Position numbers and translations under genes: made by a program. The notes under the pieces are model-generated. The model did not search any database. It was not told where the DNA came from and saw only the letters and a list, made by a program, of their open reading frames with translations. Shown in pieces: positions 2,525 to 20,245 of a DNA stretch of 64,000 nt. Numbering within the stretch: position 1 is the stretch's first letter; the number at the start of each line of letters is the position of its first letter. The DNA is taken from contig NZ_PVEP01000004.1 in assembly GCF_002973535.1 (NCBI RefSeq), forward strand, positions 131,501-195,500, written 5' to 3'. The stretch is from Albidovulum denitrificans. Lineage in GTDB: Bacteria > Pseudomonadota > Alphaproteobacteria > Rhodobacterales > Rhodobacteraceae.

Positions 2525-3397
2525 ATGACGATCTTCAACCTTGGTTCGATCAATATCGACCACTTCTATCGCCTGCCGCACCTGCCCCTGCCGGGGGAGA
2601 CGCTGGCGGCCACCGATTACAGCACCGGGCTGGGCGGCAAGGGCGCGAACCAGTCTGCCGCCGCCGCGAAGGCAGGGGTGCGGGTGGTTCATATCGGCGC
2701 GATCGGGGCCGACGGCGGCTGGACGATCGGGCGGTTGAAGGGCTGGGGCGTCGATACCTCGGCCATCGCGACCATCGACACGCCGACCGGCCATGCGATC
2801 ATCAATGTCGATGCCGGGGGCGAGAATTCCATCGTGATCTTTCCCGGCGCCAACCGGGCCATGCCGTTCGACATCGTCGAACGCGCGCTGGCCGGGGCGC
2901 GGCCGGGCGATACGCTTCTGATCCAGAATGAAACCGCGCATCAGGCGCAAGCCGCCGATCTGGCCCGCGCGAAGGGTCTGCATGTCATGTATTCCGCCGC
3001 GCCTTTCGATGTGGACGCGGTGCGCGCGGTGCTGAAAAACGTCTCTATCCTTGCCCTGAACGCGGTCGAGGCGCAGCAATTGACCGCCGCGATGGGCGTC
3101 ACGCTTGACGATCTCGACGTGCCTGAGCTTTTGGTGACGCGCGGTGCCGACGGGGCCGAATGGCGCGGCGACGGCAAGGTCTTTACCGCCGCGTTGCACA
3201 AGGTGACGGCGGTCGATACCACCGGTGCAGGCGATACCTTCGCGGGCTATTTCGCCGCCGGGCGCGACGCCGGGATGACCCCGGCCGAGGCGCTTGACCT
3301 TGCCGCTGCCGCCGCCAGCCTCAAGGTCACGCGGGCGGGTACGGCCGATGCGATTCCGACGCGGGATGAGGTGGCGGCCTTTCGCGTTAATGGATGA
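2525..3397 (+). CDS. PfkB-family (ribokinase-like) sugar kinase
   Basis: A 290-residue cytoplasmic PfkB-family kinase that should phosphorylate a sugar or nucleoside with ATP. It has the N-terminal signature STGLGGKGANQS (residues 33-44) and the C-terminal anion-hole/catalytic motif DTTGAGDTFAGY with general base Asp237. ATG 2525 lies 13 bases after the maeB stop behind gggagggcg, so the two genes are probably co-transcribed. The substrate cannot be read from the sequence: ribokinase is closest in style, but no ribose transporter is nearby. Its 3' end overlaps the convergent msrA gene by 11 bases. Confidence 0.85.
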   Translation: MTIFNLGSINIDHFYRLPHLPLPGETLAATDYSTGLGGKGANQSAAAAKAGVRVVHIGAIGADGGWTIGRLKGWGVDTSAIATIDTPTGHAIINVDAGGENSIVIFPGANRAMPFDIVERALAGARPGDTLLIQNETAHQAQAADLARAKGLHVMYSAAPFDVDAVRAVLKNVSILALNAVEAQQLTAAMGVTLDDLDVPELLVTRGADGAEWRGDGKVFTAALHKVTAVDTTGAGDTFAGYFAAGRDAGMTPAEALDLAAAAASLKVTRAGTADAIPTRDEVAAFRVNG

Positions 3398-4010
3398 ACG
3401 GGGCCGCGCTGCCCCAAAGCTGTTTCACCCGCTGATCCCGGCCGCAGGCCTTGCGGTAGAAGGCATAGGCACCCGCCTGCGTCTTCAGCCCCCGACGGGT
3501 CAGGACGATGTGCTTTCCACGATAGTAGTTCTGGTGTTCCTCACCGGCCTTATAGAAGGGTCCGGCGGGCAGGATCATGGTCGCCACCTTTCGGCCAAGG
3601 GCTGCTTGTGCCTTGGCTTTCGCGGCCTCGGCGGCGGCCTTTTCCGCGGCCGTCTTCACGAAGATCGCGGTCCGGTAGCTGGACCCGCGATCGCAGAACT
3701 GCCCGCCCGCGTCGGTTGGATCGACGGAGCGGAAGAAAAGCTCAAGGATCTGCTCATAGCTGATGCGGGCGGGGTCGTAGAAGATTTGCGCGGCCTCGTA
3801 ATGCCCTGTCTTTCCGCCTTTCACCTCCTTGTAGGTCGGGTTTCTGGTCTTTCCGCCGGTAAAGCCGGAAATGACGCCTTTGACCCCCGGCACGCTTTCG
3901 AAATCCGCCTCGACACACCAGAAACACCCCCCGGCGACCGTGGCGATGCTGGTCTTCGCAACGGCGGGCGAGGCCATCAGCAAAGCCAGGCTCAGGATCA
4001 TACGCAGCAT
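3387..4010 (-). CDS. msrA: Exported peptide-methionine (S)-S-oxide reductase
   Basis: A 207-residue MsrA that repairs Met-S-sulfoxide. The catalytic motif GCFWC places the nucleophilic Cys at residue 29; EEHQNYY and downstream residues fit the family. Unlike the usual cytosolic MsrA, it begins with a hydrophobic signal sequence (MLRMILSLALLMASPAVA), so it probably works in the periplasm. ATG 4010 follows aggaggtg. A much longer upstream frame exists but covers the divergent aminotransferase and is not coding. A periplasmic methionine repair enzyme is notable because a Met-repeat exported protein is encoded 6 kb away, although the two are not linked by operon. Confidence 0.93.
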   Translation of the reverse strand: MLRMILSLALLMASPAVAKTSIATVAGGCFWCVEADFESVPGVKGVISGFTGGKTRNPTYKEVKGGKTGHYEAAQIFYDPARISYEQILELFFRSVDPTDAGGQFCDRGSSYRTAIFVKTAAEKAAAEAAKAKAQAALGRKVATMILPAGPFYKAGEEHQNYYRGKHIVLTRRGLKTQAGAYAFYRKACGRDQRVKQLWGSAAPFIH

Positions 4011-8567: not shown

Positions 8568-8870
8568 ATGTCTTCCCGTAGTTCGCTTGTTATCGGAGCT
8601 GTCGCCGTGCTGATTGCGGGGGCGGTCGGCTACTATGTCCTTAAGGGCAGCGATACCGCGACCGCTCCGGTGGCAGATCAAAGCCAGACAACGGCGCCGG
8701 CCCAATCAACCGCCGCGAAACCGGCGGCGACGGAACCGGCCGCATCGGCCAGCTCGGGTGCCGCGCCGGTCGAGAGCGCACCGACCGAGGCCGCGCCCTG
8801 CACGCAATATACCTGGAACGGCGAAGGCTGGGCCTGCACCGGTGCAGCCGCAGTGAGCGGCGCCAACTGA
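8568..8870 (+). CDS. Small membrane-anchored periplasmic protein with Ala/Pro linker and CTQYT motif
   Basis: A 100-residue protein of no recognised family. Residues 7-25 form one membrane segment (or uncleaved signal), residues 28-77 are a low-complexity Ala/Pro/Thr/Ser linker, and the end is a short tail CTQYTWNGEGWACTG with Cys78 and Cys90, which could form a disulfide in the periplasm. The tail shares CTQ-aromatic-T with the two WVCTQWT motifs of the Met-repeat protein at 9701, suggesting a common partner or ligand. A strong terminator follows at 8901, so it is a separate transcript from the operon starting at 9317. The ATG is preceded by agagagagcagagtc. Confidence 0.65.
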   Translation: MSSRSSLVIGAVAVLIAGAVGYYVLKGSDTATAPVADQSQTTAPAQSTAAKPAATEPAASASSGAAPVESAPTEAAPCTQYTWNGEGWACTGAAAVSGAN

Positions 8871-9316: not shown

Positions 9317-9604
9317 ATGCGTGCTGTTTCCAAGAAACTTACGATTGCGGTCCTGGTCCTGCTTCCCACGGTGCTTCAGGCGCAGGAGCTTTTCATCGCG
9401 GGCGTGCATCCCGGCGAAAGACCGGCGAATGCGCCTGTTGTCACCGACTATCCCAAGGATGCCGCCTGGTTTGAACGGGCGCTGCACGGCATCACTGAGC
9501 CGCACCCCGACAGTCTTCGTTTCCTCGAATCCCAGGGGGCGTGGTTCACGCCGTTCGACCGGCCCGGAATGACGGGTCCCTACGACATCCGCGATTGGCA
9601 TTGA
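9317..9604 (+). CDS. Small secreted protein of unknown function
   Basis: A 95-residue protein with a clear cleavable signal sequence (residues 1-22, ending VLQA before QE). The mature part has no cysteines and is rich in Pro, His and aromatic residues, with a C-terminal segment GAWFTPFDRPGMTGPYDIRD. I recognise no family. It is the first gene after the 8941-9316 regulatory region and lies 96 bases before the Met-repeat gene, so it is likely part of the same periplasmic system. ATG 9317 follows gctcagg, a weak site. It could be an accessory or chaperone of the redox enzyme. Confidence 0.65.
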   Translation: MRAVSKKLTIAVLVLLPTVLQAQELFIAGVHPGERPANAPVVTDYPKDAAWFERALHGITEPHPDSLRFLESQGAWFTPFDRPGMTGPYDIRDWH

Positions 9605-9700
9605 GCAAACTGCCCCGGCCGCCCTTCGTGGCCGGGGTGGGAGTGTGCGGTCAGCGCGCAATTTCTGCGAGCGGCCGGAACAACAGTTGGAGAAAGCCAG

Positions 9701-10657
9701 ATGAAAATGAAATCTCACACGCTCGCAGCGGTTCTGTGCTCCGCAGCCCTGTTCGCCGCGCCGACCGTCGCAAGCGCTGACAGCATGTCGGGCATGGATG
9801 GCATGTCCGGTATGGGCGGTATGTCGGGTATGTCCGGCATGGGTGGCATGTCCGGTATGGGCGGCATGTCGGGTATGTCCGGCATGGGTGGCATGTCCGG
9901 TATGAGCGGCATGTCCGGCAATGGCGGCATGAGCTGGGTCTGCACCCAGTGGACCAGCACGGGTATGGGCGGCATGTCGGGTATGTCCGGTATGGGTGGC
10001 ATGTCCGGTATGGGCGGTATGTCCGGCATGGGCGGCATGTCCGGCATGGGCGGCATGTCCGGCATGGGCGGCATGTCCGGCATGGGCGGTATGGCTGGCA
10101 TGGACGGCATGTCGGGCATGGGTGGCATGTCCGGTATGGGCGGCATGTCGGGCATGGGCGGCATGGCTGGCATGGACGGCATGTCGGGCATGGGCGGTAT
10201 GGCTGGCATGGACGGCATGTCGGGCATGGGCGGTATGGCTGGCATGGACGGCATGTCGGGCATGGGTGGCATGGCTGGCATGGACGGCATGTCCGGTATG
10301 GGTGGCATGTCGGGCATGGGTGGCATGTCCGGTATGGGCGGCATGTCCGGTATGGGCGGCATGTCCGGTATGGGTGGCATGTCCGGTATGGGCGGCATGT
10401 CCGGTATGGGTGGCATGTCCGGTATGGCCGGCAATGCTTCCGGCTGGGTCTGCACCCAGTGGACCGTCTCCGGTCCGGCGATGTCGGGCATGAGCGGCAT
10501 GTCCGGTATGGGCGGCATGTCCGGTATGGGCGGCATGTCGGGCATGGGTGGCATGTCCGGTATGGGCGGCATGTCCGGCATGGGCGGCATGTCGGGCATG
10601 GGTGGCATGTCCGGTATGGACGGCATGTCGGGCATGGACGGTATGTCCGGCAACTAA
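9701..10657 (+). CDS. Exported Met-Gly-Ser repeat protein with two WVCTQWT motifs
   Basis: A 318-residue protein: signal sequence 1-26 (cut after VASA), then three blocks of degenerate M-S-G-M-G-G repeats in which roughly every third residue is Met. The blocks are separated by two copies of WVCTQWT, with Cys81 and Cys251 the only cysteines after the signal. Variant units carry Ala or Asp (MAGMDG). The reading frame is supported by the signal peptide, the RBS ggagaaag, and residues that differ from the repeat only at the motifs. Such a Met density suggests metal binding (Cu), haem or quinone contact, or an oxidant sink that cycles through Met sulfoxide. The gene sits just before the cytochrome and a sulfoxide-reductase-type enzyme. 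I know of no named family. Confidence 0.8.
   Translation: MKMKSHTLAAVLCSAALFAAPTVASADSMSGMDGMSGMGGMSGMSGMGGMSGMGGMSGMSGMGGMSGMSGMSGNGGMSWVCTQWTSTGMGGMSGMSGMGGMSGMGGMSGMGGMSGMGGMSGMGGMSGMGGMAGMDGMSGMGGMSGMGGMSGMGGMAGMDGMSGMGGMAGMDGMSGMGGMAGMDGMSGMGGMAGMDGMSGMGGMSGMGGMSGMGGMSGMGGMSGMGGMSGMGGMSGMGGMSGMAGNASGWVCTQWTVSGPAMSGMSGMSGMGGMSGMGGMSGMGGMSGMGGMSGMGGMSGMGGMSGMDGMSGMDGMSGN
9785..10650 (+). repeat. Tandem 9/18-bp coding repeats (atgtccggtatgggcggc type)
   Basis: Degenerate tandem units of nine and eighteen bases in three blocks (9785-9929, 9965-10431, 10481-10650) encode the Met-Gly-Ser protein. Because unit length is a multiple of three, slippage changes copy number without breaking the frame, so length polymorphism between strains is expected. 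The periodicity opens long false frames on both strands. Confidence 0.95.
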
Positions 10658-10674
10658 CTCAAGGCCGTGACAAT

Positions 10675-10701
10675 CTGCAGGGCGGGCTCTCCGCCCTGCA
10701 G
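10675..10701 (+). promoter_or_regulatory. 11-bp perfect stem-loop between the Met-repeat gene and the cytochrome gene
   Basis: ctgcagggcgg pairs perfectly with ccgccctgcag around a gctct loop, 18 bases after the repeat-protein stop and 30 bases before the cytochrome start. There is no following T-run. It probably protects the upstream mRNA or attenuates downstream expression, so that the structural Met-rich protein is made in excess over the enzyme. Confidence 0.7.
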
Positions 10702-10730
10702 GCACATGAAATACCGCTCGGGTTGGAACC

Positions 10731-12221
10731 ATGAAAAAGCTTGAAGGCCTGCTGGGCATCGTGGCGGGCATATTCTTTTCGCTCACCGCTCTCATTGCCC
10801 TGATGGTGATCGCAACACTGATCTACAAAGGGCCTGCGCGCCACGCTACGGCGGTGGCCCAATCGGCCGCACCGGCGGATGCCGCACCCGCTACCCAACC
10901 CGAAACCGCTGCCGCGCCCGCGCCGACCGCCGAGGTCAAGACCGCCGGGGTGAGTGTCGCGGCGGGCGAAAAGGTTTTCAAGAAATGCAAGGCTTGCCAC
11001 ACGGTCGATGAGGGCGGCAAGAACACCACCGGACCCAACCTCTGGGATATCCTCGACCGCGGCATCGCCGCGCATGAGGGGTTCGCCTATTCCGACGGGA
11101 TGTCGGCGAAGGCCGGGGACAGCTGGGACGTGGCGCTTCTCGACCAGTATCTGACCAAGCCGAAAGATGTGGTTCCGGGGACCAAGATGGCCTTCGCGGG
11201 CCTGCCCAAGGAAGAGGACCGGCAGAACGTCATCGTCTATCTCGCCAGCCTGTCTGCCAACCCGAAAAGCGCCGAGGCGCTTGGCTTTGCAGCCGCGAGC
11301 GGAACCGAGGTCGCCGCCGCTGAAAGCCCGGCCGCCGACGGCCCGGTTGAGATTGAGCCTGTCCCCTACCCGGACGGCGTGACCTATACCAACCCGCCCG
11401 CGCCGACGGATGCCGAAATCGCGGCCTCGGCCGCGGCGGTGGAGGAGATCCAGAAGGAACTCGCCACGATGGATTACGAGCGTGCGCAGTATGATCCGAT
11501 CCATTTCGCACCCGCGATCAACACTGCCACGAACGAGGAATGCCTGACCTGCCACCAGGAGATCATGGACCACAAGCCGCGCGAGACGTCGCAGGCGGGG
11601 GTTGCCGCCACGGACACGATCGCGTGGTACCAGACGCTGGATACCTACACCCAGGATCAGGCGAGCTTTCACTGGCGGCATATGGAAAGCGATTTCGCCA
11701 AGGAGGTGATGAACCTTCAGTGCGTCTTCTGCCACAAGGGCAACGACCCGCGTGAGGAAAGCCCCGACATGCTGCCGACCCGCGCCGCGTTCAGCGCCCC
11801 CGCGCAGCCGGAGTTCACCTTGCGCAAGATGGTCAACCCCTCGACCACCTGCCTGCTCTGCCATGGCGCGATGCCCGACCCCGAGAACATCATGGGTCTT
11901 GCGGGCGACTGGCCCGAGGCGCGCGTCGATCTTGAGACACCTGAGGCCCCGAATGGCTGCCTGAGCTGCCACGCGGAGTTGTTCCGTACCGAGCGTCACA
12001 ACGTGTCCTACCTGAAGGCCGCGAATATCGAGGAGCTGGCCCGCGCCGGGTCGTCGGACAGCTGCTACGGCTGTCATGGCGGGCGGCAGTGGTACCGCAT
12101 CTCCTACCCCTATCCGCGCCATGCCTGGCCCGGAATGGATGACAGCGAGGTCCCGGACTGGGCGGTCAACCGCCCGACGGAATCGGACCCTGAATACGCC
12201 CTGCCCGCCGCCGCGCAATAG
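10731..12221 (+). CDS. Membrane-anchored hexahaem cytochrome c (class I domain fused to a pentahaem domain)
   Basis: A 496-residue protein with one N-terminal membrane helix (about 8-31), an Ala/Pro linker, and a class I cytochrome c domain (about 75-178) with CKACH at 86-90 and the axial-Met candidate PGTKM (Met153). A second linker leads to a C-terminal region with five more CxxCH sites: CLTCH 271, CVFCH 331, CLLCH 374, CLSCH 410 and CYGCH 445. Six c-type haems are predicted, all periplasmic. It lies directly upstream of the molybdoenzyme and most likely passes electrons between the membrane or soluble cytochrome pool and that enzyme, replacing a DmsC-type membrane anchor. The fusion of CycM-like and pentahaem parts is unusual. 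Direction of electron flow is not evident. Confidence 0.85.
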   Translation: MKKLEGLLGIVAGIFFSLTALIALMVIATLIYKGPARHATAVAQSAAPADAAPATQPETAAAPAPTAEVKTAGVSVAAGEKVFKKCKACHTVDEGGKNTTGPNLWDILDRGIAAHEGFAYSDGMSAKAGDSWDVALLDQYLTKPKDVVPGTKMAFAGLPKEEDRQNVIVYLASLSANPKSAEALGFAAASGTEVAAAESPAADGPVEIEPVPYPDGVTYTNPPAPTDAEIAASAAAVEEIQKELATMDYERAQYDPIHFAPAINTATNEECLTCHQEIMDHKPRETSQAGVAATDTIAWYQTLDTYTQDQASFHWRHMESDFAKEVMNLQCVFCHKGNDPREESPDMLPTRAAFSAPAQPEFTLRKMVNPSTTCLLCHGAMPDPENIMGLAGDWPEARVDLETPEAPNGCLSCHAELFRTERHNVSYLKAANIEELARAGSSDSCYGCHGGRQWYRISYPYPRHAWPGMDDSEVPDWAVNRPTESDPEYALPAAAQ

Positions 12222-12231
12222 GAGAGAGATC

Positions 12232-14781
12232 ATGGACGGAAGCATCACCAACGGGTCCCCGCAAAGCACGTCCCGCCGCGCGTTCCTGAAGGCATCGGCG
12301 GCGACGGCGGCGACCGGGCTTGTCCTCGGCGCCGGGGCGAAAGAGGCCAAGGCCTTTGCCTATGAGCCCTATCCCCGCGACGACGATCTTGAGACGGTCG
12401 TGACAAGCTGCGCCCACAACTGCGGGTCGCGTCACATGCTGGTCGCGCACAAGAAGGGCGACGTCATCGTCCGCCTGTCGACCGACAACGGCACCTATCA
12501 GGGCGACGCCTACGGCACCGATACCGAGGAAAAGCCGCAGCTGCGTGCCTGTCTGCGCGGCCGGTCCTACCGCTCGCGGCTCTATTCGCCTGAGCGGCTG
12601 CTGTACCCGATGAAGCGCGTCGGTGCGCGCGGCGAGGGCAAGTTCAAGCGCGTAACCTGGGACGAGGCGCTGTCCGACATCGCCCAGCGGATGGTCTATC
12701 TGCGCGACACCTACGGGCCGACGGCGCTTCTCGACCAATCTTATGCCGGGGCGTCCTATGGCGTCCTGCATAAGTCCGACCAGATCGAGGGCCTTCTTGG
12801 GCGCTTCATGGGTATGTTCGGGTGTCGTACCTCGAGCTGGTCGGTGCCGTCCTATCAGGGGACCACATTCTCAAGCCGGACGACCTTCGGTACGATCCAG
12901 GACGGGAATGAGGATGACGCCTTCGCGCATTCGAAGCTGATCATCATGTGGGGCTGGAACCCGGCCTATACGTTCCACGGCGGCAACACGTTCTATTACA
13001 TGCGGATGGCCAAGCAGCGCGGCTGCAAGTTCGTCCTTGTCGATCCGCAATATACCGACTCCGCCTCGGCCTATGACGCGTGGTGGATTCCGATCCGGCC
13101 CAATACCGATGCCGCGATGATGGCCGGGATGGCCTATCACATCTGGGACAACGACTGGCACGATCAGGCGTTCATCGACCGCTTTGTCCAGGGCATGGAC
13201 AAGGGGACGATGCCCGGCTGGGCGCAGGGCCAGGAAAGCTTCAAGGACTATATCTTTGGTGAGCGTGACGGGGTCGCGAAGACGCCGGAATGGGCGGCCG
13301 AGATTTGTGGCGTCAAGGCCGAGGACATCAAGAAACTGGCCGAGATGTATGCCACGACCAAGCCCGCGGCGCTGAAGGCGAGCTGGTCTCCGGGGCGGAA
13401 CGCCTATGGCGAGCAGTATAACCGCATGGCCGCCGCGCTTCAGTCGATGACGGGCAATATCGGTATCCTTGGCGGTTGTGCCGAGGGTGTTGGCAAGGCC
13501 TGGCACGCCGAGGCGGTGGCCTATCCCTATGACCAGTTCGCGAATGTCTGGTACGCCTCGATCAAGTCCGACCGCTGGGCGCATTGCGTCCTGAACTACC
13601 CCAACCTCAAGCGCGAGGAAATCGGGCTTTGGCCGCGGATGGACCAGCTTGACGGGGTGGCGCCGAATATCCGCGGGATCTTCTGGCAGGGGTCGGACTG
13701 GCTGAACCAGTTGACCAACATCAACAAGGAAATCGCCGCGATCCGCAAGCTGGACAGCTATGGCGAGGGCGAGAGCCTTCTGGTCTGCATGGACAGCACG
13801 ATCACCCCGACGGGGATCTGGGCCGACTATCTTCTGCCCATCGCCACCCATTTCGAACGGCATGATGTGGCGCTGCCCTGGTACAAGGGGCATTACTACA
13901 TCCACCGTCCGGTGGTCATTCAGCCGCTGGGCGAATCCAAGACCGACTTCCAGGTCTTTACCGAGCTTGCCTATCGCCTTGGTTTCGGTCCCGGCTATAA
14001 CCCCCGCGCGACGCGCGACTACTTCAACGACCCGACCCAGGTCGATGAGGCCTATCTGGTCGCCTGGTGGGACAATGTGCGCCATCATCAGGGGGTCGAG
14101 TGGGACTGGGAGACGTTCAAGAAGCGCGGAGTCTACAAATTCGTCCTGCCCGAGCCGCATGTCGCCTTCCGGCCGCAGATCGAGCAGGGGATGCCGTTCG
14201 AGACGCCGTCGGGCAAGATCGAGATCTTCTCCACCACGCTTGCGCAGACGCCGGACTGGACCCGGACGCAATATGGCTACGAAATCCCGGCGATCCCGAA
14301 ATGGATCGAGCCGTGGGAAAGCCTGAACCACCCCAAGGCCAAGGAATTCCCCTTCCACATGATCAGCCCGCATCCGCGTTGGCGGACGCACTCGATCTTC
14401 AACAACATCCCGTGGCTGCGTGAGACCTTCGCGCAGGAAACGATGATGAACGCCTCGGATGCCGAGAAGATGGGTATCCGCACCGGCGACACGATCGAAT
14501 GTTGGAACGAACGCGGGCGGGTCATCACGCCGGTCTATGTCAGCGAACGCTGCATGCCGGGGGTGGTGGTCCTGCACGAAGGTGCCTGGATGGACCTTGA
14601 TGAGGATGGCGTCGACCGGTCCGGCAACCCGGACTTCCTGACCCTCGACAACCCATCTCCTGCGGGGGCCTTCGCCTATAACACGGTGCTTTGCAACGTG
14701 AAGAAAAGCGATCTTAACCACCGGCCCGGCTGGGACAAGCTGTCGACCGCGCGGAGCCATGTGTTCCGTCGCGACCTTTGA
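12232..14781 (+). CDS. Tat-exported DmsA-like molybdopterin oxidoreductase, catalytic subunit
   Basis: An 849-residue DMSO-reductase-family enzyme. A Tat signal (SRRAFLK, 14-20) sends the folded protein to the periplasm. The sequence RACLRGRSYRSRLYSPERL followed by PMKRVGARGEGKF is close to E. coli DmsA, and Ser207 (VPSYQG) aligns with the DmsA molybdenum-ligating Ser. The FS0 cluster site reads C60-x3-C64-x3-H68 ... C107, so the third Cys of DmsA is His here. Followed by a DmsB-like subunit and a TorD chaperone, but no DmsC. Likely substrates are sulfoxides or N-oxides; oxidation of a thioether is also possible because the partner is a cytochrome. ATG 12232 follows ggagagagatc. Confidence 0.88.
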   Translation: MDGSITNGSPQSTSRRAFLKASAATAATGLVLGAGAKEAKAFAYEPYPRDDDLETVVTSCAHNCGSRHMLVAHKKGDVIVRLSTDNGTYQGDAYGTDTEEKPQLRACLRGRSYRSRLYSPERLLYPMKRVGARGEGKFKRVTWDEALSDIAQRMVYLRDTYGPTALLDQSYAGASYGVLHKSDQIEGLLGRFMGMFGCRTSSWSVPSYQGTTFSSRTTFGTIQDGNEDDAFAHSKLIIMWGWNPAYTFHGGNTFYYMRMAKQRGCKFVLVDPQYTDSASAYDAWWIPIRPNTDAAMMAGMAYHIWDNDWHDQAFIDRFVQGMDKGTMPGWAQGQESFKDYIFGERDGVAKTPEWAAEICGVKAEDIKKLAEMYATTKPAALKASWSPGRNAYGEQYNRMAAALQSMTGNIGILGGCAEGVGKAWHAEAVAYPYDQFANVWYASIKSDRWAHCVLNYPNLKREEIGLWPRMDQLDGVAPNIRGIFWQGSDWLNQLTNINKEIAAIRKLDSYGEGESLLVCMDSTITPTGIWADYLLPIATHFERHDVALPWYKGHYYIHRPVVIQPLGESKTDFQVFTELAYRLGFGPGYNPRATRDYFNDPTQVDEAYLVAWWDNVRHHQGVEWDWETFKKRGVYKFVLPEPHVAFRPQIEQGMPFETPSGKIEIFSTTLAQTPDWTRTQYGYEIPAIPKWIEPWESLNHPKAKEFPFHMISPHPRWRTHSIFNNIPWLRETFAQETMMNASDAEKMGIRTGDTIECWNERGRVITPVYVSERCMPGVVVLHEGAWMDLDEDGVDRSGNPDFLTLDNPSPAGAFAYNTVLCNVKKSDLNHRPGWDKLSTARSHVFRRDL

Positions 14782-14801
14782 TCCGAGCGAGGAGAGAGAA
14801 G

Positions 14802-15476
14802 ATGGCAAACCAAGTCGACAAGGCCCGGATCAAGGAAAACGTCGCGCGCATGAAGCGCGAGACCTACACCCCGGTGGTGCCGGACATGCAGATGGGGTTC
14901 GTCCACAACAACGTGGACTGCATCGGCTGCCGCGCCTGCGAAATCGCCTGCAAGGACAAGAACGGGCTGGCGGCCGGCCCGCGCTTTCGCCGGGTGCAAT
15001 ATATTGAGGGCGGGACCTATCCCGAGGTCTTCGCCTTCAAGATCAACATGTCCTGCAACCATTGCGCCGAACCGGCCTGCCTTCCGGCCTGCCCGACCGG
15101 CGCGATCTTCAAGCGCAAGGATAACGGGGTCGTCGATATCGATTCGACCCTCTGCATCGGGTGCCGCAAGTGCGAGGCGGCCTGCCCCTTTGGCGCGCCG
15201 CAGTTCAACGTGGAACTGAACATCGTCCAGAAGTGCAACATGTGCGTGGATGAGCTTGAGGTTGGCCGTGATCCCTATTGCGTCGCGGCCTGCATGATGC
15301 GGGTTCTCGATGTCGGGCCGATCGACCAGATCGCCGATGGCAGCTATGACACCAAGGCTGTCGGCCCGAATGAGACGGTGGTCCGGCAGGTCCGTTCGAT
15401 GGCGGACCCTGAGCTGACCAACCCGTCGATCCGCTTCGTGCCGCATTCGAAGGGGATTGTTCAAGATGGCCAGTGA
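14802..15476 (+). CDS. DmsB-like four-cluster iron-sulfur subunit
   Basis: A 224-residue ferredoxin-type subunit with four cysteine groups, CIGCRACEIAC, CNHCAEPACLPAC, CIGCRKCEAAC and CNMCVDELEVGRDPYCVAAC, consistent with four [4Fe-4S] clusters as in DmsB, TtrB and PhsB. It has no signal of its own and should be carried through the Tat system with the catalytic subunit. It would connect the FS0 cluster of the molybdoenzyme with the hexahaem cytochrome. ATG 14802 is 20 bases after the preceding stop with a strong gaggagagag site; its end overlaps the chaperone gene by 11 bases, indicating translational coupling. Confidence 0.92.
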   Translation: MANQVDKARIKENVARMKRETYTPVVPDMQMGFVHNNVDCIGCRACEIACKDKNGLAAGPRFRRVQYIEGGTYPEVFAFKINMSCNHCAEPACLPACPTGAIFKRKDNGVVDIDSTLCIGCRKCEAACPFGAPQFNVELNIVQKCNMCVDELEVGRDPYCVAACMMRVLDVGPIDQIADGSYDTKAVGPNETVVRQVRSMADPELTNPSIRFVPHSKGIVQDGQ

Positions 15477-16212
15477 CGCCCGCACCCTTGGCTCTGATGC
15501 GGCGTCACGGCTGGCGGACCTGGCCGATGTCGTCTCGGTCCTGGCGCGATTTCACGACCGTGAGGTCGATGCCAGGACGATCGACTGGCTCAGGCAGTTC
15601 GACGTCGCCGGTTTCTTCGCCGAGGTTCTGACCTCGGCGCCGGGACGGGCGGCGGCGAAGGCGTTCACGGCAGCGGTGGTGGCGCTGCCGGAACGTCCCT
15701 CCGCCGAGGTGATTGACGACCTCGCCGCGGAATACGCCTCGATCTATCTTAACCATGCCTATCGCGCCTCGCCCAGCGGATCGGTCTGGCTGACCGAGGA
15801 CCGGCTGGAACGGCAGATGCCGATGTTCGACGTGCGCGAGTGGTATGATCATTACGACATCTCCGTCCCCGACTGGCGCCGCCGGGCGGACGACCATATC
15901 GTGCCAGAGCTTGAATTCGTGGCCCATCTCTGCCGTTTCGGCGCGATGAGCGGGGCCGAGGATGCGGCGGGGTTCCTTGACGGGCATGTCCTGAACTGGA
16001 TGCCCGAGTTTCTGGAAAAGGCCGCGCGTCCGGCGCAATGTGCGCTTTACCGCGCGATCCTGCAAATGACCGACGCGGTTCTGGACGAGTTGAGGGATGA
16101 GCTTGAGGCGATCACCGGGCGCGCGCGGCAGGTGGCTTTCCCGACCTCGGACGACGCGCAGCAGGCCGAGACGGCGGCGCCCTACTTTCCCGGCGTCGCG
16201 GAAAGCTGGTAG
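15466..16212 (+). CDS. TorD/DmsD-family molybdoenzyme maturation chaperone
   Basis: A 248-residue all-helical cytoplasmic protein of the TorD family, which binds the Tat signal and folds the apo-enzyme during cofactor insertion. The central segment AAEYASIYLNHAYRASPSGSV and the later DHIVPELEFVAHL (the E-P-D-H-type signature region) fit the family. Residues 220-248 form an extra charged tail. Overlap with the DmsB-like gene and location in the operon support a role dedicated to the molybdoenzyme. ATG 15466 is chosen; a TTG nine bases earlier is possible. Confidence 0.85.
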   Translation: MASDARTLGSDAASRLADLADVVSVLARFHDREVDARTIDWLRQFDVAGFFAEVLTSAPGRAAAKAFTAAVVALPERPSAEVIDDLAAEYASIYLNHAYRASPSGSVWLTEDRLERQMPMFDVREWYDHYDISVPDWRRRADDHIVPELEFVAHLCRFGAMSGAEDAAGFLDGHVLNWMPEFLEKAARPAQCALYRAILQMTDAVLDELRDELEAITGRARQVAFPTSDDAQQAETAAPYFPGVAESW

Positions 16213-16217
16213 GGCGC

Positions 16218-16991
16218 ATGGCGGGGGCGTTGTCCTGGGCGTCGATCCGCCAGGGTACGGCTTACCTGCGGTGCCGACAGGGGCCACGCGCCTTCTGTGT
16301 CGGCCAGATTGACCTTGAAAGGCTGGCGCAGATCTATCTGGCGGGCGTTCTGCACGTCATTACCGCGCCCTGCAACTGCGGCAATCACGCCGAGGGCGCG
16401 GATCGGGTCATCGGGCAGTTCAACGACCTGATCCGGGTCCGCGGCCTGCCCGAAATCAACCATCGTGAGGTCGCGGTGGAGATCGTCCGCAACGGCGCGG
16501 GCGAAAGCATCGATGGCGCCCGTCGCGGGTTCCTGCGTCGGGTCAGCGATGTGGTGGTCGAGGATGAAGAGGCCGCAGAAGACCCGCCCGCCCTTGCCGC
16601 GATCCTTGCTTTCGGGGCCGAGGATCCGAACGTCCCTTACCCCTGGGTGCCGGTCTTCGACGCCGATCTTTGTACCGGATGCAATGGATGCATCAACGTC
16701 TGCCCGGAAGACAGTTTGATCTTGATCACGGCAGAGGATGGCACGGTGTGCTATGGGGCGCGTCCTGAAACGTGCAACGGGTGCGAACTTTGTATGTCGG
16801 TTTGCGAGTATGGGGCGATTGAGCTGCGTGGGATGACCGCGCGCAGCCCCGATATTCCGCTTGTTTCCGGTGTCTGCCGGGCCTGCGGTGTCGACTATCA
16901 CGAACCTGCCGGACGCGAGTCCGCAAGCGGGTTCTGTCCGGTCTGTCGCAGGACCGGGCATCATCGCAAGCTTTTCCAGGTCATTCAGTGA
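16218..16991 (+). CDS. Ferredoxin-like protein with two [4Fe-4S] sites and a C-terminal zinc ribbon
   Basis: A 257-residue soluble protein with no signal. The N-terminal ~125 residues carry scattered cysteines (LRC, FCVG, PCNCG) and no family I can name. Residues ~148-200 hold a two-cluster ferredoxin, CTGCNGCINVCPE and CNGCELCMSVCEYGA. The C terminus is a zinc-ribbon pair, CRACG and CPVC. It is not a standard subunit of DMSO-type reductases. As a cytoplasmic iron-sulfur protein next to TorD it may assist cluster or cofactor loading, or supply electrons for maturation. Stop and the following kinase start overlap (GTGA), so expression is coupled. Confidence 0.7.
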   Translation: MAGALSWASIRQGTAYLRCRQGPRAFCVGQIDLERLAQIYLAGVLHVITAPCNCGNHAEGADRVIGQFNDLIRVRGLPEINHREVAVEIVRNGAGESIDGARRGFLRRVSDVVVEDEEAAEDPPALAAILAFGAEDPNVPYPWVPVFDADLCTGCNGCINVCPEDSLILITAEDGTVCYGARPETCNGCELCMSVCEYGAIELRGMTARSPDIPLVSGVCRACGVDYHEPAGRESASGFCPVCRRTGHHRKLFQVIQ

Positions 16992-18865
16992 TCCGGCTGT
17001 CCCGGAGCGCCACCGCGCGTTTCGGCGCGCTGTCGCTTCAGCGCAAGTTCGCGCTGGTGGCGGGGGCGCTGATGTTTGCCACCTCGCTCTGCTTCCTGAT
17101 CCTTGTCCTTGGGCTGCACCTGAACAGCGTTTCGGCATCGAACGAACGGGCGGTGCGTTCGGTCAACCGGCTTTTGCAGGCAGCGTTGGAAAACGCGATG
17201 CTGAAGCGCGATATTCCGGGGCTGCGAGAGATCATCACCGATCTTGGCGCGCAGGACGGTATTCGCGGGGTGATGATCGTCAACCCCGAGGGAGAGGTGC
17301 GCTTTTCCTCATATGAACAGGACCTCTACAGCACCTTCGACGACCCGGCGCTGACCGAGGCGCTGGCAAGTCAGAGCCAGCAGACGGAGTTCCGTGCGGT
17401 CGGGGGGGTCGATGTCCTTCGAAGCATCAACCCGGTCCTGAACAAGCAGCAGTGCAACGTCTGCCATGGCCTGTCCGCCGATCATCCGGTGAACGGCCTT
17501 CTGGTGATCGACTACGAAACCGCCGGGACGCGGCGTTATGCCCTGATCGGGGCCGCGCTCCTGATGGCGCTTGGCCTTGTCGTCGTGCTGGCGGTTGAGG
17601 GTGGGCTCTGGGTCGCGCTGCGGAAGATCGTCCTGGACCGGGTCGCGCGGCTTGACAGTGCCTTCGCGCAGGTGGGCGCGGGCAATCTTGACGCGCGGAC
17701 CGATGTCGTCGGCGGGGATGAGATCGGGCGGCTGGCGGGGAACTTCAACCTGATGTCGGACCGGCTGGCGATGTCGGTCGATAGGCTGCGGGCCTCGGAG
17801 GCGTTCTTGCAGGACCTGATCGACGCGGTTCCCGACGGCATTCGCGTCATCGGCCCCGATTTCCGCATCATCGTGGCCAACGCCGCCTATCTGCGCCAGG
17901 TCGGCGCCGATCGCGCTTCGGTCGTGGGGCAGCCCTGCCATCTGTCCAGCCATGGACGCGACGCGCCCTGCATCCCGACGATGCGGACCTGTCCGGTGGC
18001 CGCGCTTCTCCATGACCGCACGGAAAGCTTCTGCAAGTTCAACGACCGCCATCTGCGCGACGGCGCTGGCCTGTCGGTCGAGGTTTCGGCAGTGACGGCG
18101 AATATGGTGATCGACGGGCAGAGCGTGCCCTGCGTGATCGAATCCATCCGCGATCTTGAGGCGGAGGTGCAAATCTCCCATTCCGAGCGTCTGTCTGAGA
18201 TCGGCCTTCTGGCCGCCGGGATCGCGCATGAGGTCTATAATCCCCTGTCGTCGATCCGCCTTGCGCTGCGCGCGGTGGCCAACCAGCCGAACCTGACCGA
18301 GGCGACGCGCAATTACCTGTCCATCGCGGATACGGAGATTTCGAGCTGCCAGGGCTTCACCGACGGCTTGCTCAGGCTTGCTTCGCGCCCGTCGCCGCAT
18401 CTGGAACTGGTGGCGCTTCGGGCCGCGATCGTCGAGACGGCAGCGCTTCTGAACTATCAGGCGGAACAATCCGACGCGAAGATCGACATCGACATCGAGG
18501 GGGAGCCGCGCGTTCTGGCCCATGACAGCGAGATCAGGATGCTGGTCTTCAACCTGGTCCTGAACGCGGTTCACGCCATGCCCGATGGCGGCCCCGTCCG
18601 CGTGTCCTGCCGCGCCGACGGGGCGGGACGCATCCGGCTTCAGGTGGCCGATACCGGCGTCGGCATCCCCGAGGATCTGCGCGACAAGGTGATGCTGCCT
18701 TTCTGGACGCGCCGCGCGGATGGCAGCCGGGGGCGGGGCCTTGGCCTGACGATCTGCAACGCCATCGTCGGGGCGCTGGGCGGACAGATCGGGTTCGAAA
18801 GCGAGGTTGGGCGCGGTACGGTCTTTACCGTCGATCTCGCCGATGCCGACAAGAAGGAGGAGTGA
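16988..18865 (+). CDS. Sensor histidine kinase with periplasmic c-haem motif and Cys-rich PAS domain
   Basis: A 625-residue membrane kinase: TM1 about 21-44, a periplasmic sensor domain 45-184 containing CNVCH (Cys156, Cys159, His160), TM2 about 185-208, HAMP to about 263, a PAS domain with the cluster Cys317-His318, His322, Cys328, Cys335 and Cys349, then a HisKA domain with phospho-acceptor His414 (GIAHEVYNPL), N box NLVLNAVHAM and G boxes. Covalent haem in the sensor would report periplasmic redox state or a ligand, and the Cys/His group in PAS could bind metal or act as a thiol switch. The following regulator is its partner (3-base gap). Confidence 0.88.
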   Translation: MIRLSRSATARFGALSLQRKFALVAGALMFATSLCFLILVLGLHLNSVSASNERAVRSVNRLLQAALENAMLKRDIPGLREIITDLGAQDGIRGVMIVNPEGEVRFSSYEQDLYSTFDDPALTEALASQSQQTEFRAVGGVDVLRSINPVLNKQQCNVCHGLSADHPVNGLLVIDYETAGTRRYALIGAALLMALGLVVVLAVEGGLWVALRKIVLDRVARLDSAFAQVGAGNLDARTDVVGGDEIGRLAGNFNLMSDRLAMSVDRLRASEAFLQDLIDAVPDGIRVIGPDFRIIVANAAYLRQVGADRASVVGQPCHLSSHGRDAPCIPTMRTCPVAALLHDRTESFCKFNDRHLRDGAGLSVEVSAVTANMVIDGQSVPCVIESIRDLEAEVQISHSERLSEIGLLAAGIAHEVYNPLSSIRLALRAVANQPNLTEATRNYLSIADTEISSCQGFTDGLLRLASRPSPHLELVALRAAIVETAALLNYQAEQSDAKIDIDIEGEPRVLAHDSEIRMLVFNLVLNAVHAMPDGGPVRVSCRADGAGRIRLQVADTGVGIPEDLRDKVMLPFWTRRADGSRGRGLGLTICNAIVGALGGQIGFESEVGRGTVFTVDLADADKKEE

Positions 18866-18868
18866 CGC

Positions 18869-20245
18869 ATGGCCGAGCCGAACATCATCGTGATCGAGGA
18901 CGACCGCAACCTGAACGCGCTTCTAAGCGGTCAGCTTGCCGAAGAGGGGTTCCGCGTCACCTCGGCCCATAGTTGCCGGGAGGGGCGGGCGCTTCTGGAA
19001 GGGTCAGAGCCGAACCTGATGATCATCGACATTCGTCTGCCCGACGGCGACGGGTTCGAGTTCATTCGGCAATATGGCGAGATCTTCCCGATCATCGTCC
19101 TGACCGCCTATGGCACCGTCGATCAGGCGGTTGAGGCGGTTCAGGCGGGGGCGAGCGACTATCTGCTCAAGCCGATTTCCTTCGACGCGCTCAAGGTCGC
19201 CATCGGCCGCGCGCTGGCGACGGTCGAGCTGAAGCGTGACGTGCAGTACTGGCAGAAGCGGGCGCAGAAGGACCTGAACGTCACCATCGTCGGCAACAGC
19301 CCGAAGGTGGCGCATATGCGCCATCTGATCGAGCTTTATGCCGTCACCGATTCCAGCCTTCTGATCGTTGGCGAAAGCGGCGTCGGGAAAGAGCTTGTGG
19401 CCCATGCGATCCATAAGAAAAGCGACCGCAAGAACGGCCGGTTCGTCGCGGTGGATTGCGATCCGGCTCAGGAAAGCAATGTCGCGCAAGAGCTTTTCGG
19501 CGAGGAACAGACCATGCGCGGCGGCGCCCGGCGCGAGGGGATGCTGGCCATCGCGCAGAACGGGACGATCTATGTCAACAACGTTGCCGAGATGTCGTTG
19601 GCGCTGCAAAGCAAGCTTTTGCGGGTGATGGAGACGGGGACGTTCCGGCGTGTGGGCGGGACGCAGGACCTTGTCACCAATGTCCGCATCCTTGCCGCGA
19701 CCAGCAGCAACCTTCAGGCCCGGATTGCCGATGATCGTTTCCGCAGCGAGTTGTTCTATCGCCTGAACGCTTTCTGCATCGAGGTGCCGCCGCTGCGCGA
19801 CCGGTTGACGGATGTCCCGCTGCTGGCAGAGCATTTCCTGAAATACCGCAACTTCCAGCGCGGGATAGACAAGCGTCTGGCGGCCGACACCATCGCCGCG
19901 CTGACCGATTACGCCTGGCCCGGCAACGTGCGTGAGCTGCGCAACGCCATCGAACGCGGTGTCATCATGTCGGGGCAGGAGGAAGAGATCACCGCCGCCC
20001 ATGTCGGCATCAGCGCGACGCGAAGCGCGGCCGGGGATCATGGCGGCGTGGTTCTGGGCTTTGACTATGAACCGACGATGGAGGAGGTGCGGGACCACTA
20101 CATCCGCATGTTGTTGCGCCGCTATGACGGCAATCGCCGGAAGGTGGCCGGAATCCTCGGTATCAGCGAACGCAACACCTATCGTCTTGTCGGCAAGCTT
20201 GAGGTGGATGGCGAAACGGGCGGCTTGGGTGGCGCGGCGGAATAG
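18869..20245 (+). CDS. NtrC-family response regulator lacking GAFTGA and Walker B acids
   Basis: A 458-residue REC-AAA-Fis protein. The receiver has Asp54 and Lys101. Walker A is intact (GESGVGKE, 168-175). The GAFTGA loop that contacts sigma-54 is absent: ELFGEEQTMRGGA occupies its place. Walker B, usually TLFLDE, reads TIYVNN, so both acids are Asn. The arginine-finger region FRSELFYRLN and a C-terminal Fis-type helix-turn-helix (RKVAGILGISERNTYRLVGK) remain. By analogy with Rhodobacter capsulatus NtrC, which also lacks GAFTGA and works with the housekeeping sigma factor, it probably regulates without sigma-54 remodelling. Its target is presumably the 9317-16991 operon. Confidence 0.9.
   Translation: MAEPNIIVIEDDRNLNALLSGQLAEEGFRVTSAHSCREGRALLEGSEPNLMIIDIRLPDGDGFEFIRQYGEIFPIIVLTAYGTVDQAVEAVQAGASDYLLKPISFDALKVAIGRALATVELKRDVQYWQKRAQKDLNVTIVGNSPKVAHMRHLIELYAVTDSSLLIVGESGVGKELVAHAIHKKSDRKNGRFVAVDCDPAQESNVAQELFGEEQTMRGGARREGMLAIAQNGTIYVNNVAEMSLALQSKLLRVMETGTFRRVGGTQDLVTNVRILAATSSNLQARIADDRFRSELFYRLNAFCIEVPPLRDRLTDVPLLAEHFLKYRNFQRGIDKRLAADTIAALTDYAWPGNVRELRNAIERGVIMSGQEEEITAAHVGISATRSAAGDHGGVVLGFDYEPTMEEVRDHYIRMLLRRYDGNRRKVAGILGISERNTYRLVGKLEVDGETGGLGGAAE

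Follow-up and report, generated by a model that had tools for sequence, protein, structure and literature searches.

What could be the function of an exported protein that consists almost entirely of M-x-G triplets? This question is raised by a gene in the window, that is, the complete 64,000-nucleotide stretch of Albidovulum denitrificans DNA analysed here. The ORF at 9701..10657 (+) encodes 318 amino acids, starting with MKMKSHTLAAVLCSAALFAAPTVASADSMSG, and the stretch 5' of its ATG, GGAGAAAGCCAG, is rich in purines. The N-terminal Sec-type signal, which is similar in the homologues, comprises residues 1-26 (9701..9778, +), with cleavage probably occurring after ASA, and the mature repeat protein extends over 9779..10654 (+), the stop codon ending at 10657. 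The 291 mature residues include 121 Gly, 87 Met, 47 Ser, 8 Asp and 8 Ala, with Met accounting for almost one-third of the protein. The original prediction of an exported M-x-G repeat protein with two WVCTQWT motifs is confirmed by both the composition of this ORF and its homologues; the motifs occupy residues 79-85 and 249-255.

Two antisense ORFs, of 312 and 534 amino acids, are also open at this gene, but neither a signal peptide nor homologues of matching layout are found outside the + frame. The codon structure points in the same direction. In all 86 regular 9-nt units, ATG and GG occupy constant positions, whereas the wobble base of the Gly codon varies (60 C and 26 T) and Ser is encoded by TCC, TCG or AGC; fixed ATG and GG combined with variable wobble bases of Gly and Ser are the pattern expected of translation in the + frame.

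The repeat is under an unusually specific constraint. Among 32 homologues, a count that includes two duplicate records, the first position of the triplet is Met in 1474 of 1492 cases, the rest being 15 Gln, 2 Ile and 1 Ser, with no Leu or Val, and the third position is Gly in 1491 of 1492, although the counting rule, which follows regular runs and tolerates single deviations only, is biased towards regularity. The middle residue drifts among S, G, N, Q, D and A. Repeat homogenisation may contribute to this regularity. Nevertheless, if the role were merely hydrophobic or structural, Leu, Ile or Val would be acceptable as well, yet these almost never replace the repeat Met, so that the thioether itself matters. 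His is nearly absent from the homologues (0-4 per protein), and the mature part of the complete homologues contains either no Cys or two.

In the AlphaFold predictions (7 rows), the pLDDT is below 50 across the repeats, and there are only two strands, which coincide with the CTQWT motifs, at residues 78-86 (9932..9958, +) and 249-257 (10445..10471, +). Because strands need a partner, these two presumably pair with each other in the model and close a putative Cys81-Cys251 disulfide loop. Although both WVCTQWT motifs are present in the window protein, they are not a constant of the family: the homologues have CVQWT/CTSWA, CTKW/CVEW, the Cys-free WVWVP or YFRISPTGEIFFYP, or lack the insert altogether. 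Given that Cys-free versions occupy this place in other homologues, the strand insert is a module that can be replaced. Many homologues also have a C-terminal W-x-P-P, which is missing in the window protein. Motifs of this kind were seen in other proteins as well. A small membrane-anchored or exported protein encoded at 8568-8870 of the window, which had no counterpart in the other cluster loci checked, has an end, APCTQYTWNGEGWACTG, that resembles the CTQWT motif. Beside the cluster in locus L076 (14338-14817 and 14912-15766, -), the first of two genes encodes an exported protein that combines a peptidoglycan-binding domain with two CTQ motifs (CTQWT and CTQIT), and the second a fusion of a class I cytochrome c to a domain resembling the small exported protein described below.

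The expectation that no named family has this layout held up. Because of the Gly-x-y periodicity, Pfam and NCBIfam yield collagen-like matches only: Pfam Collagen scores 37.6 bits against a cut-off of 27.2, and a scan of seven homologues against NCBIfam, to E = 10, returned only collagen-like adhesin models far below their cut-offs. Matches in the PDB were rejected as reflecting collagen periodicity. A search of the literature found no paper with the M-x-G repeat string or the cluster, and the homologue on a conjugative plasmid of Rhodobacter xanthinilyticus, which bears the whole cluster, is annotated in RefSeq as ‘hypothetical protein'. The M-x-G proteins are a real, widespread and unnamed family that is tied to a molybdoenzyme clade; the function proposed below is inferred from sequence.

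The strongest clue to this function is the DMSO-reductase-like gene cluster in which the gene resides and which the original prediction did not mention. The order of the genes is: small exported protein, M-x-G protein, multihaem cytochrome c, DmsA-like protein, DmsB-like protein, TorD, ferredoxin-like protein, histidine kinase and response regulator. The small exported protein (t9215; 9317..9604, +), with the end PGMTGPYDIRxWH, is conserved in the cluster and belongs to no known family; its AlphaFold model (mean pLDDT 62.5) is too weak for a fold search, and a profile search of the PDB produced nothing significant. The cytochrome (10731..12221, +) is membrane-anchored and has six CxxCH sites in a class I domain and a five-haem domain, an architecture shared by the aligned Rhodobacterales chains, whereas the Thiothrix chain has the five haems only. 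It is followed by a Tat-exported, DmsA-like molybdenum enzyme that forms its own clade (12235..14781, +), the DmsB-like Fe-S subunit (14778..15476, +; TIGR02951, 186.7 bits, below the cut-off of 214.1), a TorD-family chaperone (15457..16212, +), a ferredoxin-like 4Fe-4S protein that appears NapF-like by its layout (16218..16991, +), a histidine kinase with one CxxCH haem-c site in the periplasmic sensor (16988..18865, +) and an NtrC-type response regulator (18869..20245, +). The GAFTGA motif is missing in this regulator and present in that of Thiothrix (L081, 4876-6213, -), so that sigma-54 dependence may have been lost in the window lineage; a conserved sigma-54 promoter upstream was rejected, with one near-match in the window and none consistent across the loci. 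An exported MsrA is encoded 5.7 kb upstream (3390..4010, -; PF01625, 9.9e-54) and could be a helper of the M-x-G system, but conserved linkage was rejected because, in L054 and L057, the ORFs read 5' of the cluster do not include this gene.

GC-rich hairpins flank the M-x-G gene, one between it and the small exported protein gene (9610..9640, +) and one, without a T run, directly 3' of its stop codon (10674..10702, +). For the 75 nt that follow the stop codon, the folding z-score has a median of -3.3, with 26 of 33 homologues below -2, compared with -0.36 and 13 of 150 for random 75-mers from the same loci, an imperfect control, in which the positions are mostly coding. The position of the hairpin is kept among the homologues whereas the stem sequences are unrelated. 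It may be an element that stabilises the M-x-G mRNA or causes partial termination and thereby raises this mRNA over that of the cytochrome.

Once evident duplicate records are removed, about 36 distinct loci with the cluster remain, from alpha-, beta- and gammaproteobacteria, and the M-x-G layout is kept across genera, orders and classes. The organisms include Rhodovulum imhoffii, Sedimentimonas, Zhengella, Marimonas, Hyphomicrobium, Azospirillum rugosum, Thiobacillus, a Zoogloeaceae MAG, Thiofilum, Thiothrix and Chromatiales, many of the carriers being sulfur oxidisers. Of 298 genomes of the family, seven (the genome of the window and six others) encode true M-x-G proteins, and these seven genomes, with the same eight loci, are exactly those with a full-length match to the downstream cytochrome. 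The weak M-x-G matches in the same 298 genomes are mostly other-frame repeats or other proteins, and the loci kept from them (to L026) include no further M-x-G protein, except for an insert in L021 discussed below. A contig scan that used the cytochrome, rather than the M-x-G protein, as its only anchor yielded 31 loci with the DmsA-like enzyme (L061-L091), and 26 of the 30 that were testable have, directly upstream of the cytochrome, an M-x-G gene that is either complete or represented by its end at a contig edge; scans anchored on the small exported protein added four loci, all four with the M-x-G gene. In four loci (L075, L088, L089 and L091), the enzyme cluster has no adjacent M-x-G gene, so that the protein is an accessory rather than a core subunit and the enzyme must have another substrate or use.

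The family is easily missed. A tblastn search of plasmids with the M-x-G protein produced zero matches despite the plasmid homologue, which indicates that low-complexity filtering hides the family. Furthermore, the metagenomic contigs L062, L066, L068, L071, L073, L074 and L086 start inside the M-x-G gene. With several MAG contigs breaking within the repeats, the gene is under-represented in assemblies, and short-read assemblies systematically truncate or lose it.

The DmsA-like chains are 69-88% identical across the cluster loci and share no more than 36% identity with the other DmsA proteins found. They resemble DmsABC and DorA in the Ser-ligated Mo site, the equivalent of Tyr114, the Tat-exported large subunit, the DmsB-like subunit and the TorD chaperone: Ser147, the Mo ligand of Rhodobacter sphaeroides DorA, and Tyr114 align with S206 and Y170, which are invariant in seven homologues, whereas Trp116 of DorA is not conserved, with Gly in its place. 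Tyr114 of DorA favours S-oxides. The differences from the known systems are that the large chain does not reach the cut-off of TIGR02166, the NCBIfam DMSO/selenate family (607 against 777.7 bits), and that the cluster includes a multihaem cytochrome and the M-x-G protein; no ORF for the DmsC membrane anchor was found in the window cluster, L064, L081, L085 or L149, the multihaem cytochrome being there instead.

Of the three roles that had been put forward originally, namely, soft-metal (Cu) binding, redox or oxidant buffering and an extracellular fibre, the second is best supported by the sequence data because the gene travels with a DMSO-reductase-like molybdoenzyme; Cu binding is possible and a fibre is less likely. 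The reading we tentatively prefer is that the M-x-G protein is a disordered periplasmic Met/methionine-sulfoxide redox buffer that is probably recycled by the adjacent molybdoenzyme. The approximately 87 thioethers would react with two-electron oxidants to give methionine sulfoxide, and the Ser-ligated DmsA/DmsB-like enzyme, fed by the multihaem cytochrome c if electrons flow in this direction, would reduce these sulfoxides back, making the protein a rechargeable sink. The haem-c histidine kinase and the response regulator could switch the cluster on with the redox state, and the hairpin 3' of the M-x-G gene might allow the protein to accumulate in excess over the enzyme.

This redox-buffer reading draws on the cluster linkage, the Met-specific repeat, the conserved Ser and Tyr residues of the active site, the hairpin, and two precedents. 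First, DorA reduces protein-bound methionine sulfoxide, including that in disordered casein, and for disordered proteins, the efficiency is similar to that with free methionine sulfoxide; of two peptides tested, QWGAGM(O)QAEED was reduced faster than TTPGYM(O)EEWNK (PMC7402097). Second, perchlorate reducers combine a Met-rich peptide with YedYZ, a molybdenum methionine sulfoxide reductase, in periplasmic methionine cycling (PMC4623255). Four observations speak against the buffer: four loci have the enzyme cluster but no M-x-G gene beside it; in alphaproteobacteria, the multihaem cytochrome is fused to a class I cytochrome c domain, which points to a partner of high potential, a poor fit to sulfoxide reduction; the Trp116 of DorA is not conserved; and the M-x-x-M spacing fits Cu(I) equally well.

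The last of these leads to the strongest alternative to the redox buffer, although an unlikely one, that the protein is a soft-metal sponge, with the M-x-x-M thioethers binding Cu(I), Ag(I) or similar ions in the periplasm for storage or detoxification. M-x-x-M is a recognised Cu(I) motif and runs throughout the protein, the failure of Met to be exchanged for other hydrophobic residues is consistent with metal binding, and a multicopper-oxidase-like protein of a relative (L021, genome G183) has a Met-rich insert with M-x-G-M units. However, this insert mixes Met with His and Asp whereas the M-x-G proteins have hardly any His, no copper transporter, oxidase or regulator was found in the neighbourhoods read, and the linkage to a molybdenum S-oxide-type reductase would be left unexplained. 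The copper-binding Met-rich proteins and the PcoA/CopA inserts share the periplasmic M-x-x-M spacing, but the M-x-G protein has almost no His and no copper genes nearby, and it consists of repeats nearly throughout.

Rather improbably, the protein might scavenge a reactive by-product, such as hypohalous acid, of oxyanion reduction by the molybdoenzyme, with Met restored by MsrA, MsrP or other enzymes. Perchlorate reducers use a Met-rich peptide against hypochlorite, and hypoiodous acid has been proposed to form in iodate reduction; a class I cytochrome c would fit a high-potential acceptor, and an accessory protector would be consistent with the loci that lack the gene. The exported MsrA near the cluster in the window would suit this role but is unlinked in the other loci read. 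The enzyme retains the Ser ligand and the Tyr of S-oxide reductases, and chlorite dismutase, peroxidase and yedYZ were not seen among the ORFs read, all of which weighs against a scavenger of this type.

It is improbable that the protein is a structural Gly-x-y chain, be it collagen-like, a polyglycine-II bundle or a coat of sulfur or selenium particles, in which Met would provide a hydrophobic face. The periodicity of Gly and the Pfam Collagen match conform with such a chain, as does the abundance of sulfur oxidisers among the carriers; some sulfur oxidisers store sulfur. However, the carriers include Hyphomicrobium and Rhodobacterales, in which sulfur globules are not known, and SoxB does not discriminate them: as a predictor of the cluster, it was rejected, with 186 of the 298 family genomes above the cut-off, and among the seven carriers, the five near-complete genomes are above and two that are 78% complete are below. 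In bacterial collagen-like proteins such as SclB and Lcl, Gly also occupies every third position, but the M-x-G repeats have Met at nearly every X and no Pro (the single Pro of the mature protein lies outside the repeats), which makes a collagen triple helix unlikely, and there is no surface anchor. The rarity of Leu, Ile and Val in place of Met and the disorder predicted for the repeats, with a pLDDT below 40, count against the fibre that had originally been considered. Highly improbable is the notion that the protein is a rechargeable terminal electron acceptor made by the cell, a methionine-sulfoxide polymer that is charged in the presence of oxygen and that the DmsA-like enzyme respires once oxygen is gone, at oxic-anoxic interfaces.

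As a redox buffer, the M-x-G system would work like MRP (MrpX)-MsrP with another class of enzyme. In both, a small exported Met-rich protein is encoded beside a periplasmic molybdenum enzyme of the sulfoxide-reducing type, and methionine cycling is proposed for the MRP-YedYZ/MsrPQ system. The M-x-G system is not, however, a member of the MRP system because both the repeat and the enzyme differ. The protein described here has an M-x-G triplet repeat and matches no NCBIfam Met-repeat model; the enzyme is DmsA-like rather than MsrP-like and comes with a multihaem cytochrome and an Fe-S subunit of its own; and a two-component system takes the place of sigF/nrsF. No yedYZ/msrPQ and no sigma/anti-sigma pair were found among the cluster genes or the ORFs read.

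Although DorA reduces protein methionine sulfoxide in vitro, its function in vivo, according to the authors, remains to be validated (PMC7402097). The M-x-G protein is a natural candidate substrate for methionine sulfoxide reduction by an enzyme of the DMSO reductase type: its gene adjoins that of the enzyme, it consists almost wholly of the potential target, and it occurs in cultured sulfur bacteria and on a conjugative plasmid. In sulfur-oxidising macrobacteria, dmsAB genes have been read as indicating DMSO respiration (PMC5728499), a reading that may need revision where these genes belong to the M-x-G-linked clade. The repeat itself also occurs as part of a different protein: in genome G023, which carries the cluster on another contig, a PQQ-dependent alcohol dehydrogenase (L060, 4661-6820) has a C-terminal tail of about 25 M-x-G units.
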